Shown here one piece after another: positions 7,125 to 14,735 of a DNA stretch of 52,729 nucleotides. This DNA comes from Opitutaceae bacterium (lineage in GTDB: Bacteria; Verrucomicrobiota; Verrucomicrobiia; Opitutales; Opitutaceae), in NCBI GenBank assembly GCA_014879845.1, contig JACSRI010000098.1, forward strand, positions 1 through 52,729, read 5' to 3'. Made by a program: the position numbers and the translations under genes. The first letter of the stretch is position 1, and each line of letters opens with the position of its first letter. The notes under the pieces were generated by a model. It searched no databases and had not been told where the DNA came from. It saw only the letters and a program-made list of their open reading frames with translations.

Positions 7125-7592
7125 ATGGCCATCCCGCACCACACCGCCGAAGTCCACTGGTCGCGCCAAGGCGCGACCTTCACCGACAACCGTTACTCGC
7201 GCGCTCACACCTGGCGTTTCGATGGCGGAGCCGAGGTGCAGGCCTCGTCGTCGCCCCACGTCGTCCCCGTGCCGATGTCGGATCCCGCCGGGGTCGACCC
7301 CGAGGAGGCGTTCGTCGCCGCGCTCTCGAGCTGCCACATGCTCTGGTTTCTCGCGATCGCGGCCAAGCGCGGCTTCGTGGTCGAAGCCTACGATGACGAG
7401 GCTGAGGGCACGATGGGCACCAACGATTCCGGCCGCCTGGCCATGACCCGCGTGATCCTGCGCCCGCGCGCGGAGTTTTCCGGCCCGAGGATCCCGACCT
7501 CCGCCGATCTCGACGCCATGCACCACGAGGCCCACGAGAAGTGCTTCATCGCGGCCTCAGTCCAAACCGAGGTGCTGATCGAGCCGGCCTGA
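7125..7592 (+). CDS. OsmC-family peroxiredoxin-like protein
   Basis: A 155-residue protein of the OsmC/Ohr superfamily, thiol peroxidases that reduce organic hydroperoxides. The two redox cysteines are present: Cys70 in ALSSCHMLWFL and Cys140 in HEKCFIAASV. The N-terminal part (HTAEVHWSRQG, YSRAHTWRFDGG) matches the OsmC-like subgroup rather than Ohr. It sits upstream of a GbsR/MarR regulator, but the gap contains that gene's own promoter region and operator, so joint control is not shown. Confidence 0.88.
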   Translation: MAIPHHTAEVHWSRQGATFTDNRYSRAHTWRFDGGAEVQASSSPHVVPVPMSDPAGVDPEEAFVAALSSCHMLWFLAIAAKRGFVVEAYDDEAEGTMGTNDSGRLAMTRVILRPRAEFSGPRIPTSADLDAMHHEAHEKCFIAASVQTEVLIEPA

Positions 7593-7635
7593 GCGCCGCA
7601 CCCGCCAGATCGCCCGCCGCCCGTTCGATCCCGGG

Positions 7636-7672
7636 TTGACAAGGGGTCACGATTTCTGTCACGACAGAAATC
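7636..7672 (+). promoter_or_regulatory. Perfect palindromic operator (O1) with -35 box before the GbsR/MarR gene
   Basis: GATTTCTGTC-AC-GACAGAAATC at 7651-7672 is a perfect 10+10 palindrome ending five bases before the regulator's ATG. A consensus -35 hexamer TTGACA lies at 7636-7641, so the palindrome covers the -10 and start-site region. No good -10 hexamer is visible. This geometry suits autorepression. A near-copy lies before the next gene at 8231-8250. Confidence 0.75.
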
Positions 7673-7677
7673 GCCGA

Positions 7678-8211
7678 ATGAAAGCCCTCACGTCCATCCA
7701 GCAGAAGTTCATCCTCCACTGGGGGGAGATGGGCACGCGCTGGGGCATCAACCGGACGGTCGCGCAGGTGCATGCCCTGCTCTATCTCTCGCCCGACCCG
7801 CTGCCGGCCGACGAGATCACCACGCTGCTCGGCGTGGCCCGCTCCAACGTGAGCACCAGCCTCAAGGAACTGCAGGGCTGGGGCATCGTGCGCCTCGTCC
7901 ATGTGATGGGCGACAAGCGCGACCATTTCGAGTCGCTCCACGACGTATGGGAGATGTTCCGGATCATTCTCGACGAGCGCAAGCGCCGCGAGATCGACCC
8001 GACACGCGAGATGCTCCGGGCCACGCTCAATGCCTCGGCCGAGGAAGGCCTGGATGAGTTCACCCGCATGCGCATCCAGGAACTCAGCGATTTCATGGAG
8101 ACCTCCATGGCCTGGTACACGCAGGTGAGCCGCTGGCCGCAGTCCGTGCTCACGCGCTTCCTGCGCCTCGGCGACCAGGTGCTTTCACTGCTCAAGGGCG
8201 GTCGCGGCTGA
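7678..8211 (+). CDS. GbsR/MarR-family transcriptional regulator
   Basis: A 177-residue protein with a winged-helix domain of the GbsR type (COG1510-like). WGINRTVAQVHALLYL precedes a recognition-helix region LGVARSNVSTSLKELQGWGIV. After the wing (MGDKRDHFES) comes a long helical C-terminal half, rich in charged residues, probably for dimerisation. The ATG at 7678 was chosen because it directly follows the palindromic operator; the earlier GTG/TTG-type frame would be translated through it. The same palindrome before itself and before the DUF2071 gene implies control of both. The ligand is unknown; GbsR of Bacillus responds to choline, but nothing here indicates that. Confidence 0.9.
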   Translation: MKALTSIQQKFILHWGEMGTRWGINRTVAQVHALLYLSPDPLPADEITTLLGVARSNVSTSLKELQGWGIVRLVHVMGDKRDHFESLHDVWEMFRIILDERKRREIDPTREMLRATLNASAEEGLDEFTRMRIQELSDFMETSMAWYTQVSRWPQSVLTRFLRLGDQVLSLLKGGRG

Positions 8212-8230
8212 CCTCCCTTTTTGAAGATGA

Positions 8231-8250
8231 ATTTCTGTTAATACTGAAAT
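8231..8250 (+). promoter_or_regulatory. Second operator copy (O2) before the DUF2071 gene
   Basis: ATTTCTGTTAATACTGAAAT keeps the left half-site of O1 exactly (ATTTCTGT) and differs in the right half-site at one base (ACTGAAAT against ACAGAAAT). The spacer is again four bases. It ends 16 bases before the ATG at 8267 and overlaps an AT-rich -10-like segment (TAATAC). It links the DUF2071 gene to the regulator encoded just upstream. Confidence 0.65.
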
Positions 8251-8266
8251 CTCAGACCCCGACACC

Positions 8267-9127
8267 ATGCCCCCCGCCATCCACGATCTCCGTTCGGCCA
8301 CGCCTTCGCTCGACGCGCGGGGCTGGAGGTCGGGCTTCGGCGCGGGTCCGGTCACGCCCCTCTTCGTCGCTCACTGGAAGCGTGTGGTTTTCGTGCACTT
8401 CGCCGTCCGACCGGCCGACCTGGCTCCTCACGTGCCGCATGCCCTCGACGTGGTGGATGGCCGCGCGTTCGTCAGCCTCGTGAGTTTCACCCTCGAGGGC
8501 CTGCGGCCCGGCACGCTCATCCCGGAACGCGTCGGGCGCGCCCTGCTCGCACCCGTCTCCGAACACGCTTTTCTCAACCTCCGCACCTATGTCCGCGGCC
8601 CGGCCGGACCGGGCATCCACTTCCTCGCCGAGTGGATCAACAACCCCATCAGCCTGCACCTCGGCCCCCTCACCTTCGGACTCCCCTATCACCTCGCCGA
8701 GATCGAGCGCGTCGACCTGCCGGCGGGCGGGCTTTCGCAGATCCACGTGACCGCTCCCGGTCCCGGGGCGACGATCGGCATCACGGTGCCGCTCGTGCGC
8801 GACGAGGATGCCGTGCCGTGCCGGGACGGCTCGCTCGATGCATTCCTGGTGGAGCGCTACACCGCCTACACCCACCGCCGCGGCGTGGACCGCCATTTCC
8901 ACATCGCCCACCGGCCATGGGACGTCGCCCACGTCGATCTCGTGCGCACCGACACGCCACTCATCGAAGCGATGTATCCTTGGTTCCGACACGCCGAACT
9001 GGTGGGCGCCCATGTCGGTCCCGGCGTCGATGAAGTCATGATCGGACGCCCGCATCGCTGTCGCGAGGCTTCCGCCACCGCGGCCCGCGCCGAACCCCTG
9101 GTCGCCGGCTCGCCGCGCGTGCTCTAG
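8267..9127 (+). CDS. DUF2071 (YqjF-like) protein
   Basis: A 286-residue protein matching the DUF2071/YqjF family: an early WKRVVFVHFAVRPADLAPHVP segment, VSLVSFTLEGLRP, NLRTYVRGPAGPGIHFL and a C-terminal YPWFRHAELVG. The fold resembles acetoacetate decarboxylase-like proteins, but the biochemical role of the family is not established. It is probably controlled by the upstream GbsR/MarR protein through the operator at 8231-8250. The stop codon TAG at 9125-9127 coincides with the first bases of a repeat element, so the C terminus (ending PLVAGSPRVL) may have been set by the repeat's insertion. Confidence 0.82.
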   Translation: MPPAIHDLRSATPSLDARGWRSGFGAGPVTPLFVAHWKRVVFVHFAVRPADLAPHVPHALDVVDGRAFVSLVSFTLEGLRPGTLIPERVGRALLAPVSEHAFLNLRTYVRGPAGPGIHFLAEWINNPISLHLGPLTFGLPYHLAEIERVDLPAGGLSQIHVTAPGPGATIGITVPLVRDEDAVPCRDGSLDAFLVERYTAYTHRRGVDRHFHIAHRPWDVAHVDLVRTDTPLIEAMYPWFRHAELVGAHVGPGVDEVMIGRPHRCREASATAARAEPLVAGSPRVL

Positions 9128-9294
9128 GGCGTGCCTTCAAACCTTGCGGCTGGAGTGGAGGGTGGTGCTCCCGCACCGCCGCGAGTTCCCATCGACGAGC
9201 GTGTGCCGCTCGACATCCGCGGCCGGGCAGGAGCCCGGCCCTCCATTTCTGGCCAAGAGCGGAGGGCGAACGCCGGGTTTGAAAACACGCCATA
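9125..9294. repeat. 170-bp MITE-like element with terminal inverted repeats and three hairpins
   Basis: The ends are inverted repeats: TAGGGCGTGCCTTCAAACC (9125-9143) matches the reverse complement of 9276-9294 at 16 of 19 positions. Three stems lie inside: 9161-9168 with 9173-9180 (one G-U pair), 9196-9201 with 9207-9212 (perfect), and GGCCGGGC/GCCCGGCC at 9221-9228 with 9233-9240 (perfect, AGGA loop). There is no transposase or ORF, so any movement would need an enzyme from elsewhere. The first three bases are the stop codon of the DUF2071 gene. Confidence 0.65.
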
Positions 9295-9470
9295 AAGCCG
9301 TTTCAGCAGAGTCGCAGCCGGGAAAGTCGTTCGGCTCTCTTGGAGGCGGCTCGGTTTCGCATGCAGAAGCGGTTAGGGGATCTCGTGCCGCTGCAGCCAG
9401 CCGGTCACCCACTCCGGAAGCGGTGCCTGCGGGCTTTCCCTCGGGTGCGCAGCGTGTACCCTCCGGCCCG
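9295..9470. other. Gene-free stretch before mobA with a possible minus-strand coding remnant
   Basis: Together with the repeat this makes 343 bases without a confident gene. On the minus strand a short frame ends at TAA 9373-9375 and encodes PLPEWVTGWLQRHEIP as its last residues, which looks protein-like. The frame is closed within about 40 codons and runs into the mobA start region, so at most it is a remnant. No promoter for mobA is obvious. Confidence 0.25.
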
Positions 9471-10043
9471 ATGACACTCAGCGCCGCGATCATCGCCGGA
9501 GGGTTCTCCCGCCGCATGGGCCGGGACAAGGCGCTGCTGCCCGATGCCGCGCATGGGACGCTGCTGCAACGGCAGGTCGCGCTCGTGGCAGCGCTGGCCC
9601 CGGGGGAAGTGCTGCTTTCCTGCCGGCCCGACCAGGACCTGCGCGCACCGCCCCACGTCCGCCGCATCCACGATCCGGGCACGCACGGACCGCTCGGGGG
9701 CCTGGCCGCCTTGCTGGCGGCAATGCATGGCGACCTGCTGCTCGTGCTCGCCGTCGACCTCGGGCGCATGACACCGGCGATGCTCCAACGCTTGGCGGCC
9801 GCGTCGGCCCCGGGGTGCGGCGTCGTGCCGAGGACCGCGCGCGGGATCGAACCTCTCGCCGCGGTCTATCCCGCGACACTCGCCCGCGAGGCGCGGGCGC
9901 GCGTCGCCGCAGGGCGCGACCTTGCGCTCCACGCGTGGAGCGACGCGGGCGTGGCGGCCGGCGCGCTGCGCTGGATGGACATCGCTGCGGCGGACGAAGC
10001 GGCGTTCACCAACTGGAACACGCCGGACGATCTGCACAGCTGA
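9471..10043 (+). CDS. mobA: Molybdenum cofactor guanylyltransferase
   Basis: A 190-residue nucleotidyltransferase that would join GMP to molybdopterin to form the guanine-dinucleotide cofactor. The signature IIAGGFSRRMGRDKALL lies right at the N terminus (nucleotide binding), followed by HDPGTHGPLGGLAALLAAM, LAVDLGRMTPAM at the metal-site Asp position, and NWNTPDDL near the C terminus. The ATG at 9471 starts four residues before the conserved strand; the open frame upstream is not conserved sequence. The family usually has Cys-Asp at the metal motif and here it is Val-Asp. A related MobA-like transferase (for example MocA) is the alternative. No molybdoenzyme gene is nearby. Confidence 0.85.
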   Translation: MTLSAAIIAGGFSRRMGRDKALLPDAAHGTLLQRQVALVAALAPGEVLLSCRPDQDLRAPPHVRRIHDPGTHGPLGGLAALLAAMHGDLLLVLAVDLGRMTPAMLQRLAAASAPGCGVVPRTARGIEPLAAVYPATLAREARARVAAGRDLALHAWSDAGVAAGALRWMDIAAADEAAFTNWNTPDDLHS

Positions 10044-10092: not shown

Positions 10093-11799
10093 TCAGGTCG
10101 AGGCGTCGATCTCGGCGATCACCTGCGCGAGCGGGCGCAGCGACTCGGGCGGGTGGAAACCATTCACCCGCGCGATCACCTGCTGGATGATCCCGTCCGG
10201 GCACGAGGCGCCACCGGTGATCAGGATCGTCTGCGGCGTCGCCTTCGCGGCGAGGAACGGCCGCGCCCGCGTCTCGCCCGCGCCCGGCGCGCCCGGTTTG
10301 TAGGGATAGTGGTAGTGCTCGATCTCGCCGAGGGAGAGGATGTTTCGCTCGGATTGGATGTAGTGCGCCGCGGCCCCGTAGCGCGCCTCGCACAGGCGGA
10401 AAAGCTGGTAGGTATTGGAGCTGTTCCGGCCACCGATCACGATTGCAGCATCGGCCTCGATCTCGAGTGCGCGCTGAAGGGCGTCCTGATTCACCTGCGT
10501 GGCATAACAGAGTGTGTCCCCGCGACTCTTGTTGTGGATGTGCGTGCCGGCCTCGGCCGGTCCATAGCGGCGGACCATGATCGACTCGAGCAGATCGATG
10601 ATGCCAACCGTCTCGTTGCGCAGGAGCGTGGTCTGGTTGACCACGGCGAGCCGCTGCAGGTCGCGCTCGACGTCGAACCCGAGCGAGTGTTTGCCCGCGA
10701 ACGCAGCAAAGAGCCGCTCCTTCTCCGCGCGGCCCTCGGCGAGGATGACGGCGCCGAGCGCCTCGGCTTCGCGCGTGTCGCGGATGATGATGCTCGGGCC
10801 GTATTTCGCGGAGTTTGAGAACGTGGCCTTCGTTTCCTCGTGCTCGCTCTTGCCGTGGATCACGACGGTGTAACCGGCCTGGGCATAACGACGGGCCGCC
10901 TTCCAGACCTTCTCCACCAGCATGCAGGTGGCGTCGTAGCGGTTGACGGAGATGCCGCGCTCGATCAGGCGCACCTTGTCCTCGTCAGTCGCGCCGAAGG
11001 CGGGTGTGAGCACGACATCCCCCTGCACGAGTTCGTCCCACCAATCGCGGCCCGTCTCCGGATTCTTGATATGCGCGCCACGATCGGTCTGCAGGTAGGT
11101 GAGTCCGCGTGAGCGCAGGTCGTCGTTCACGAAGGGATTGTGGATGAGCTCGCTGATCATGAACACCCGGCGGCCGGGGTTTTCCGCGATGGCCTCGTAG
11201 GCGCGCTCGATCGCGTTTTGCACGCCGAGGCAGAATCCGAAGTGGCTGGGCAGCACGTAGCGAACGACGCCGAAATCGAGCACCGCCGGCGCGTCCGCGG
11301 TGCGCTCCTTCTGGCGGCGCGCCGCCTTGATCGCAGCGCACAGCTCACTCTGGTAAAGCGCGCGCGAACGATCGTCGCTCGTGTAGACGGCGATGTTGCG
11401 CTGGTCATCGGTGCGGAAGCGGAAGACGTACTCGTTTTCCGAGAAGTTGAGATAGGGGATCCGGATGAGGTGCGGCCGGATGGCCGGCACGAGCGCGGCC
11501 AGCAGCGGCGACACCTGGTCCGGCTCGCGCACGGCCAGGCGCTCGAGTTCGCGGATGCTCGCCCAGGTGGCACCGACCCGAGACTCCTCGGTCGACGACT
11601 GCAGGAGGACGAAGTGCACGGCGAGACGGGCGCCAGCATGCTCCAGGTCGACGATGTGGGTGGGCTCCGGCGTGCCGGCGATCGGCGCCGCGGGCACGAG
11701 GCGCCCGTCGATGTCGCGCACGACGGCGAGCAGGTGCGACTCGTTGAAGACGAGGACGCACGCGCGTGCCTTGGTTTCGGACGTGGAAGTGGCCGGCAT
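10093..11799 (-). CDS. ispH: 4-hydroxy-3-methylbut-2-enyl diphosphate reductase with N-terminal extension
   Basis: A 568-residue protein whose C-terminal 400 residues are IspH (LytB), the last enzyme of the MEP isoprenoid pathway. Its [4Fe-4S] cluster cysteines are Cys190 (FGFCLGV), Cys292 (DATCMLV) and Cys533 (GGASCPDG). The N-terminal region of about 150 residues is extra. It reads like a degenerate Nudix fold (RACVLVFNESHLLAVVRD at the start, TWASIRELERL near its end), but no Nudix box (GX5EX7REUXEEXGU) is present. The start is ATG 11799; an earlier frame start at 11880 would add an Arg/Pro-rich leader. It is convergent with mobA, 49 bases apart. The typical bacterial enzyme is about 310-320 residues. 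Confidence 0.93.
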   Translation of the reverse strand: MPATSTSETKARACVLVFNESHLLAVVRDIDGRLVPAAPIAGTPEPTHIVDLEHAGARLAVHFVLLQSSTEESRVGATWASIRELERLAVREPDQVSPLLAALVPAIRPHLIRIPYLNFSENEYVFRFRTDDQRNIAVYTSDDRSRALYQSELCAAIKAARRQKERTADAPAVLDFGVVRYVLPSHFGFCLGVQNAIERAYEAIAENPGRRVFMISELIHNPFVNDDLRSRGLTYLQTDRGAHIKNPETGRDWWDELVQGDVVLTPAFGATDEDKVRLIERGISVNRYDATCMLVEKVWKAARRYAQAGYTVVIHGKSEHEETKATFSNSAKYGPSIIIRDTREAEALGAVILAEGRAEKERLFAAFAGKHSLGFDVERDLQRLAVVNQTTLLRNETVGIIDLLESIMVRRYGPAEAGTHIHNKSRGDTLCYATQVNQDALQRALEIEADAAIVIGGRNSSNTYQLFRLCEARYGAAAHYIQSERNILSLGEIEHYHYPYKPGAPGAGETRARPFLAAKATPQTILITGGASCPDGIIQQVIARVNGFHPPESLRPLAQVIAEIDAST

Positions 11800-11905: not shown

Positions 11906-14581
11906 CTAGAGCGTGAACCAATAACTCATCTTGACCAGGAACGTGTTGTCCGGATGGGCACGGAAGAGCTGTCGGTATTCGCGGCCCGGGGCGAAGCCCG
12001 GCGTGGCGCCCGCCTCCTCGCGGTTCTGCGTCCACACGGCATAGAACGTCGAGCCTGCTTTGTACTCCCAGCGCAGCACGAGGTTGGACTGCAGCGTGCG
12101 CACGTCGAAGTCCGGATCGGCGAAGGTCACGGTGTCGCCGCCGGCACTCGCGGTGTAGAGTCCCGTCGCCGGATCGAAGGCGAGACCGTCGTCGAGCCGC
12201 ACAAAGCGATCCTCGTAGCCCGCGGCCCGCGGCTGGGTCACGCGCTTGAACCGCGTGTACTGCCCGGACGACACCAGCACATGCCCGAAGTAGGCGAGCG
12301 AGAGCCTCGGCGTGAAGTTCACCTCGAGCCGAAGCGAGGTGCCGAGCGTATGCTGGTCCATGCGGCCCATGATGTAGCGCACGCCACCCGCACTCGCGCC
12401 ACGGCCGGCGTATTGCAGATCCTCGAGCACGCGCTCGTACTCGAGTCGGGCCTCGACGTTGACGAACTGCATCACGCGCATGTCGACACCGGGATTGAGG
12501 ACGTAGCCGTGTGAGCCGCCGTCCGTGCCGCGCCAGACGTCTCCCTCGAGAAACGCCTGCCATGTCTTGCGGTTGTCGGAACGGATCTCGGTGTAGAACC
12601 ACCCGGCGCCAGGCGTGACGAGAGCCGGTCCGCCGCGCAGGACGCGCGTGTCGAAGTGCTCGGATTCACCGCCGACCTCGGCGTAGATGTTCCAGTGGTT
12701 GTTGAAAAGCGCGCTCGCGCCCAGCTCGATCTCGTCGCCGAGATGTTTGCCGGACCAGTCCCACGAGGCCTCGGGATTGAGCCGGAAGGTGCGACGCTGC
12801 CACCACGCCTGTGGGTCGGTGTCGACATAGGACAGCTCGGCATCCAGTTCGACGAGGTCGGCCACACGGAGGTAGCCCAGGTCGTTGAGTTCCACGCCGG
12901 GTGAACGCCAATCGACCACGGCATCCAGGCGCCACTTGCCGCCGCCCGTCTTGTTGAGCGAGACGGTCCCGCCCCAGCCGGAGAGCGCGTCGGCCTCGGG
13001 GTCGAGATCGAGGTGATCGGCGTCGGGCCGCTGGTAGTTGTGCACTGGATTCCGCATGAGCGCGGTGATCGCCTCGGGCGAGCCGGAGATCCGGCTGGCG
13101 AAGAGCTTGGCGTCGAGGAACCACGCGCGGTCGCTCGAGTACTGGCGCACGTCCAGGCCGGCGGTGAGCGCCTCCTCAGCCAGGCCGGGCGGGCCCTCGG
13201 CGCCGATGTCGCGCTCGACCGCGGTCACCATGCCGCCCACCGTCGTGCGACCCTTGTCGAAATCCTGCTGCACGCGCGCGACGATCTGCTGCGTGGTCGG
13301 CACGACCAGCACCTCCGAGACTTCGCCATCCTCGAAAACCTCGGCGTGCTCCTCGTCAGACAACGCGCAGAGCGCACCCACCGACGTGCCGCCCGCGGTC
13401 TTGCCGGTGAGCTTGCCGGCGCCGAGGATGCGCGTCGCGCCCGGCTGCTCCACCCAACCGGTCGACGGCGGGCGGTAACGCGGCGGCGCACCGATGCGGC
13501 GCGAGTAGAACAGGAGGTCGTCCTCGGCCTGCCACTCGAAGATCGTCTTGCCCTCGAGGAAAAACGGCCGCCGCTCCGGGAAGAACGTCTCGAAGGTGGT
13601 GAGGTTGATCTCGGCCGGGTCGGCCTCGACCTGCCCGAAGTCGGGGTTGAGCGTGAGGTCGAGGATCATGTCGCTCGTCAGCCCGATCTTGGCGTCGAGC
13701 CCGGCCTCGAAATCCGAGTCCGAGCCGGTGCGCAGCGGATTGCCCGCCTCGGCCTGGGTCGTCGCGTAGCTACCCGACACATACGGCGCCAGCTCAATGC
13801 GGCGCGAGCGCGGCAGCCCGGCGATCCCGTGCAGTTCCCCGAGCGAGAAGATCGAGCCGGGATTCTGCTGCGGGATGAGCTGCCAGTTGCTCTCCTCGTT
13901 GTTGCGCTGCAGCCAGCGCCACACGACGAAACCCCAGACTTGCTCGGGCTTGTTGGCGTAGCGCAGCTGGCTGAACGGGATGCGAAACTCCGCGGTCCAG
14001 GCGTTGTGCTCCTTCGCGACGCGCACGTCGTAGACGGCGTTCCAGCTGGTATCGAAGTCGTAGTTGAGCAGCAGGCCGTCGACCTGCGAGCCGCCCGCGG
14101 TGACGTCGAACTCGAACCCGGTGCGCTTGTCGAAGTAGCTGTCGAAGACCACGCCGACGACGTCGCCGGAGTTCTCGTCGCGCTTGCCGCGCAGGAACGG
14201 GAGTTCGTCGATCCTGGAGTCAAAGCACCGGATCGCGACGTAGAGGTGCCGGTCGTCGTAGAGGATCTTGAACTCCGTCGGCTCGGTCGCGGGCTGGCCC
14301 TCGCGCGGCTGGCGCTGCACGAGTTGCCCGCCCCACACGCCCTGCTCCGCCCAGCACCGATCGTCGAGCCGACCGTCGACCGCGGGTGGCTCGCCGGCGA
14401 GGCGCACCGCCTGGAACGTGCGCTTGGGCATCCGGCCGGCGCGAATCACCTCCAGCGGGATCGCGGAGGTCGAGCCCTCGGGCGGACGCTCCGCCGCGGC
14501 GACGCCCGGGACGGCGACGGTGGCGAAAAATGAAAAATGACCGAGCAGACGCGCGCAGCGCCGCCAAGAAACAGGAGACAT
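11906..14581 (-). CDS. DUF5916 outer-membrane protein with CBM9-like domain
   Basis: An 891-residue exported protein. The start at ATG 14581 gives a signal peptide (basic SWRRCARLL, hydrophobic core, cleavage near GVAAAE). A start at 14641 would add 20 residues. The segment from about 50 to 230 resembles the family 9 carbohydrate-binding-like domain that precedes DUF5916 (AVDGRLDDRCWAE, PTEFKILYDDRHLYVAIRCFD). The DUF5916 part follows, with DLTLNPDFGQVEADPAEINL and FFPERRPFFLEGK. The rest alternates polar and aromatic residues and ends MSYWFTL, as in an outer-membrane beta-barrel. Function is unknown in the family; surface binding of a carbohydrate or peptide is a guess. Confidence 0.85.
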   Translation of the reverse strand: MSPVSWRRCARLLGHFSFFATVAVPGVAAAERPPEGSTSAIPLEVIRAGRMPKRTFQAVRLAGEPPAVDGRLDDRCWAEQGVWGGQLVQRQPREGQPATEPTEFKILYDDRHLYVAIRCFDSRIDELPFLRGKRDENSGDVVGVVFDSYFDKRTGFEFDVTAGGSQVDGLLLNYDFDTSWNAVYDVRVAKEHNAWTAEFRIPFSQLRYANKPEQVWGFVVWRWLQRNNEESNWQLIPQQNPGSIFSLGELHGIAGLPRSRRIELAPYVSGSYATTQAEAGNPLRTGSDSDFEAGLDAKIGLTSDMILDLTLNPDFGQVEADPAEINLTTFETFFPERRPFFLEGKTIFEWQAEDDLLFYSRRIGAPPRYRPPSTGWVEQPGATRILGAGKLTGKTAGGTSVGALCALSDEEHAEVFEDGEVSEVLVVPTTQQIVARVQQDFDKGRTTVGGMVTAVERDIGAEGPPGLAEEALTAGLDVRQYSSDRAWFLDAKLFASRISGSPEAITALMRNPVHNYQRPDADHLDLDPEADALSGWGGTVSLNKTGGGKWRLDAVVDWRSPGVELNDLGYLRVADLVELDAELSYVDTDPQAWWQRRTFRLNPEASWDWSGKHLGDEIELGASALFNNHWNIYAEVGGESEHFDTRVLRGGPALVTPGAGWFYTEIRSDNRKTWQAFLEGDVWRGTDGGSHGYVLNPGVDMRVMQFVNVEARLEYERVLEDLQYAGRGASAGGVRYIMGRMDQHTLGTSLRLEVNFTPRLSLAYFGHVLVSSGQYTRFKRVTQPRAAGYEDRFVRLDDGLAFDPATGLYTASAGGDTVTFADPDFDVRTLQSNLVLRWEYKAGSTFYAVWTQNREEAGATPGFAPGREYRQLFRAHPDNTFLVKMSYWFTL

Positions 14582-14735
14582 GTCGGGAGGGAAGCGAGTG
14601 CCGCGGGTGTCGACAGCGATCGAAGGACCGCAACGGTCCACCCGGCTCGTTTTTCAATACTCGCCGGCACGATGCGCGGTTGCAGGGTTTGTGCAATGCC
14701 GCGCAGGGCGGACCTGAGGCGCGCGGGGTCGCCGC

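Follow-up and report, generated by a model that had tools for sequence, protein, structure and literature searches.

IspH catalyses the last step of isoprenoid synthesis in bacteria and yields IPP and DMAPP. It is oxygen-sensitive and belongs to an essential pathway, the MEP pathway, and its regulation and electron-donor contacts matter for drugs and for terpenoid engineering. Fusions of IspH to unrelated domains have precedent. The sections on fusions in Rao et al. (PMC4746011) describe IspH–RPS1 and IspH–UbiA 'Rosetta stone' proteins, each kept in many species, and name CMP kinase, helicase, FBP and UDP/PNP phosphorylase as other partners. The word 'Nudix' is absent from the main text of that paper. 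The name N-terminal conserved domain (NCD) is taken from passages of PMC12605070 and PMC4746011, which report that the NCD is required for complementation by plant/cyanobacterial IspH and suggest a role against oxygen. Non-catalytic Nudix domains are described in PMC5389931, whose passages on Nudix domains do not mention IspH or LytB.

Here, we describe an IspH encoded in a 52,729-nucleotide window, positions 1-52,729 of contig JACSRI010000098.1 from an Opitutaceae bacterium (GCA_014879845.1). Like IspH–RPS1 and IspH–UbiA, as presented in those sections of PMC4746011, it joins IspH to an unrelated domain that many species have kept. There, IspH is joined to S1 repeats or to a C-terminal prenyltransferase; here its partner is a predicted Nudix fold. 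No published IspH–Nudix fusion was found in the open-access literature; it is Nudix as the partner that is new, IspH fusions as such being already known.

Architecture of the fused IspH

By sequence, the protein is an IspH, and plain IspH is what routine annotation would call it. The Pfam LYTB model matches residues 185-545 (E 1e-58), and TIGR00216 scores 194.9 bits, above its cut-off of 187.85. NF009911, which represents plant/cyanobacterial-type IspH (HDR), aligns over 146-546 with 346.9 bits, under its equivalog cut-off of 440. Foldseek with the reductase part retrieves IspH crystal structures at E values down to 1.4e-15. The three [4Fe-4S] cluster cysteines were assigned by alignment with IspH of solved structure (3dnf for Cys190) and are invariant in alignments of 30 and 75 rows. 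The NCD, the long-type reductase and these cysteines are all shared with plant/cyanobacterial-type IspH, which is nevertheless without a Nudix domain. Coordinates are collected in Table 1.

Table 1. Features of the ispH gene and its neighbours in the window.
Feature	Residues	Position	Strand	Detail or basis
ispH (lytB)		10093..11799	minus	568 aa; ATG at 11799, stop 10093-10095
Predicted degenerate Nudix-fold domain, IDI/YfcD/DR0079 clade, no Nudix box	10-118	11446..11772	minus	AF2, Foldseek, VIA-align, hhalign
Site without ~14 residues present in most relatives	40/41	11677..11682	minus	alignment insertion columns
NCD (N-terminal conserved domain)	119-177	11269..11445	minus	NF009911, relatives, alignment conservation
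IspH reductase, long type	178-548	10156..11268	minus	Pfam LYTB 185-545; Foldseek
First [4Fe-4S] cysteine (GFC)	Cys190	11230..11232	minus	alignment with Cys of 3dnf
Second cluster cysteine (DATC)	Cys292	10924..10926	minus	alignment with IspH of solved structure
Third cluster cysteine (DTLC)	Cys431	10507..10509	minus	alignment with IspH of solved structure
OsmC-like protein, MarR-type regulator, DUF2071 protein in a row		7125-9127	plus	
MobA-like gene, after the OsmC/MarR/DUF2071 row		9144-10043		
DUF5916 protein, weak CBM9-like N-terminal part, adjoins ispH		11906-14641	minus	same strand as ispH

The NCD is nearly invariant in its motif (LYQSxLCxAIK, FR, RN, Y), which is also found in relatives from the same class. 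Y139, Y149, R134, K158, R162 and E165 are identical in 129 of 129 rows. A conserved tyrosine, as in plant/cyanobacterial-type IspH, is thereby present, with Y139 and Y149 both candidates for the published residue. The junction between the Nudix part and the NCD, IPYL...FR, is nearly invariant as well. In class relatives of other orders, which are without the Nudix part, the protein begins just before the NCD region. The initial annotation had set the 568 residues against the usual size of the enzyme and credited the surplus to one extra domain. That domain is there, but part of the surplus is the known NCD and the reductase itself is of the long type, so that the size is the sum of Nudix part, NCD and long-type reductase.

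Fold of the N-terminal domain

Structure prediction and fold search, proposed in the initial annotation as a check on its Nudix assignment, both bore it out. The AF2 model of residues 1-182, built from 79 sequences, has pLDDT mostly >90 across residues 10-118, and the full-length AlphaFold2 model has a mean pLDDT of 89.8 and a pTM of 0.85. Foldseek against the PDB ranks Dcp2, MutT, IPP isomerase and ADP-ribose pyrophosphatases first. With VIA-align, type I IPP isomerase (IDI) takes seven of the eight top rows (Z 10.5-9.2) and DR0079 the eighth (Z 10.0), the best match being the type I IDI 3hyq (Z 10.5, rmsd 2.6, 105 residues) and the remaining Nudix rows lying at Z 9.0 or less. Z gaps below 1 count as ties, so IDI and DR0079 are inseparable by fold. 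On these models, residues 10-118 can be confidently predicted to adopt a Nudix fold. The Nudix-like stretch thus exists as annotated but covers about 110 residues, not about 150.

Family models are largely blind to this domain. Pfam and NCBIfam gave no match on the N-terminus of the window protein, and no single N-domain reached the curated Nudix cut-off in PF00293 searches of 30 and 79 members; one of the 30 (E 0.25) and one of the 79 (E 0.031) matched below it. NF041653 matches the N-domain of one relative, L005, over 12-133 at E 0.00099, also below its cut-off. A profile of the 79 N-domains found nothing among PDB sequences at E 10, nor did phmmer with the L005 N-domain. The pseudo-Nudix domain that IspH bears here, of isomerase-clade descent, thus escapes Pfam and NCBIfam.

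Ancestry within the Nudix proteins

We compared a profile of 129 N-domains with Nudix proteins from the same genomes using hhalign. The set comprised 129 of 130 N-domains, L231 being too short. Loci L050 and L060 gave no motif match and were dropped. On the other side, 32 of 45 Nudix/IDI loci matched the motif used for them. The N-domains matched 16 IDI/YfcD-like Nudix paralogs, three duplicate pairs among them, with a probability of 86.5% over 107 columns, against 0.5% for MutT-type, 10.7% for zinc-type and 0.8% for ADPRase-like proteins. Reversed and shuffled controls stayed at ≤0.3%. When the IDI/YfcD-like set was subsampled to seven rows, the probability was 43-83%.

The six least eroded N-domain rows, picked by eye ahead of this comparison, gave the best profile match of all, 96.4% over 129 columns with the IDI/YfcD-like set and 1.3% with MutT-type. 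Without these six rows the values were 42.0% for IDI/YfcD-like, 44.6% for IDI (a profile of only two of six loci) and 1.1% for MutT-type. The match is therefore owed in good part to those six, while the ranking of clades is unchanged by their removal. For L154, the IDI/YfcD-like paralog of a relative, the nearest PDB sequences are DR0079, YfcD and IDI, which are also the proteins at the top of the fold search.

Fold (AF2, Foldseek, VIA-align) and profile homology (hhalign) together place the N-domain in the Nudix homology clan, and the comparisons above derive it computationally from an IDI/YfcD/DR0079-like clade. Type I IDI has the same fold, but IDI is a free-standing enzyme and the N-domain is fused. 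The window's own genome encodes, outside the window, a free-standing type I IDI (136.9 bits, above cut-off) and an IDI/YfcD-like Nudix protein (G000:C176:2971-3456 and G000:C266:6915-7322), so the fused domain is an additional copy of the clade.

Loss of catalytic features

The REUXEE Nudix box, expected of an active hydrolase, is absent from all 130 distinct N-domains, which extends the loss noticed in the initial annotation to every member; YfcD/DR0079-like Nudix hydrolases, in contrast, carry the full box. Most relatives retain a remnant of the Nudix helix of about 14 residues, for example DLAMATARLESAF, and the 14 corresponding insertion columns are filled in 74-94% of 129 rows. The window protein is without it. 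The active-site Cys and His of type I IDI follow strand 3, which we take to correspond to columns 36-40 and the next insertion. No common Cys or His was found in this segment, which holds F, T, G and small residues. Judged by these motifs, the N-domain is probably neither a hydrolase nor an isomerase.

Erosion has also affected length. Measured from strand 1 as far as the NCD, the domain varies from about 95 to 139 residues among relatives. Even where it is down to ~95-100 residues (L062, L090, L104, L230 and L232), the sequence of the first strand and the last helix is kept.

A role in replacing an isomerase was considered and rejected; 6 of 57 relatives, with the window genome among them, have a free-standing type I IDI that scores above cut-off. 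No type II IDI exceeded its cut-off in these 57, and the fusion is therefore not coupled to type II IDI.

Distribution and phylogeny

The long form occurs in 44 of 387 genomes of the phylum, all of the window's order, though some of the 44 align only from model positions 63-90, and for those the presence of the N-domain is judged from frame length and from matches to the N-domain/NCD alignment. In all 44 the frame stays open for 562 aa or more. The N-domain plus NCD alignment matched in 53 of 223 genomes of the order. Elsewhere in the class, 63 genomes from other orders have matches, none of which begins before model position 133. These searches confine the Nudix part to the window's order, with the 63 matching genomes elsewhere in the class missing it. 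By eye, no such domain was seen in ten regions without the long form (six from other orders of the class, two from elsewhere in the phylum and two from the same family). Among GTDB contigs, 244 relatives were confirmed by scanning, and the 80 that were kept all bear the title Verrucomicrobia or that of a subgroup. The extension is thus neither disordered, as judged by AF2, nor missing from relatives, either of which would have spoken against the initial annotation.

That annotation also raised the question of whether the extension is universal in Opitutaceae. It is present across the family, but two genomes of the same family, G003 and G021, encode a short IspH (L244 and L245) with neither NCD nor Nudix part in place of the long form, likely a replacement.

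In a tree of the IspH core, built by a quick method from 66 of 132 rows (38 hand-picked, 22 random and 6 outgroup), a fully supported branch separates the fused forms from the remaining rows. The six least eroded members fall within the part of the tree that holds the window protein, and not at its base.

Selection and possible roles

Of 52 pairs, four were dropped for undefined dN/dS values; the remaining 48 had a median dN/dS of 0.27 in the N-domain and 0.09 in the core. No N-domain value exceeded 0.55 across the 47 pairs in which dS was <1.5. By this computation the N-domain is under purifying selection. Mean column entropy was 2.4 bits in the N-domain versus 1.2 bits in the NCD. A single residue reaches ≥70% in only 14 of the 96 well-filled N-domain columns, and nearly all of these conserved residues are hydrophobic, glycine or proline, with almost none polar or charged (N22, R27); conservation across the 96 columns revealed no conserved polar pocket. 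A fold that is kept while its surface changes, with no polar pocket, suggests a structural or contact role over binding of a shared ligand.

We infer, with moderate confidence, both a role and a partner: the pseudo-Nudix domain, a member of the IPP-isomerase clade, would have been retained as a structural or docking module. Within the Opitutales, an ancestral IspH of the plant/cyanobacterial long type, consisting of NCD and reductase, would have acquired at its N-terminus a Nudix protein from the IDI/YfcD/DR0079 clade. The catalytic motif would have been lost afterwards and the domain retained in non-catalytic form. Directly preceding the NCD, which plant and cyanobacterial enzymes reportedly require for activity, it may aid reductase folding, closure over the substrate or contact with a partner such as an electron donor. 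The same evidence of decay could be read as a once bifunctional protein, IspH plus isomerase or pyrophosphatase, whose extra domain is now a relic of little function. The range of lengths, the weak conservation relative to the NCD and the six least eroded forms, which still match Nudix along their entire length, would fit such a history. Purifying selection and the intact frames in every long-form genome of the order speak against it, however, and we consider it unlikely.

The initial annotation had conceived of a sensor of diphosphates or nucleotides. Binding of a nucleotide or of a prenyl diphosphate (HMBPP, IPP or DMAPP) without hydrolysis, tuning IspH, is made conceivable by the Nudix fold and IDI-clade ancestry, and DBC1-type non-catalytic Nudix domains, predicted in passages of PMC5389931 to bind NAD metabolites, offer a known parallel. 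The conserved columns are nevertheless few and nearly devoid of polar residues, the IDI active-site place has no common Cys or His, and the window protein is without the Nudix helix segment. The sensor proposal is thus unsupported, and we regard it as quite improbable. More speculative still, and doubtful in our estimate, is a MEP-pathway 'Rosetta stone', in which the dead isomerase-like domain would be a built-in product sensor or channel setting flux or the IPP:DMAPP ratio in Opitutales. That there is no domain at all, only a mis-called start or a disordered tail with a chance likeness to Nudix, might be argued from the blank Pfam and NCBIfam results and from the ribosome-binding site, none being clearly seen by eye before the ATG. 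Against this stand the high-confidence fold, Nudix-led fold matches, a profile match with clean controls, purifying selection, and the conservation of length and place in relatives. This reading is in the main refuted and has hardly any credence with us. Kept by a whole group and lying beside the NCD, the pseudo-Nudix domain offers a natural test of what the N-terminal parts of IspH do.

Genomic neighbourhood

None of the genes flanking ispH in the window was recognised as an isoprenoid or redox gene; the neighbours are the MobA-like, DUF5916, DUF2071, OsmC and MarR genes of Table 1. ORF clustering across 80 loci returned recurring families mingled with antisense frames.
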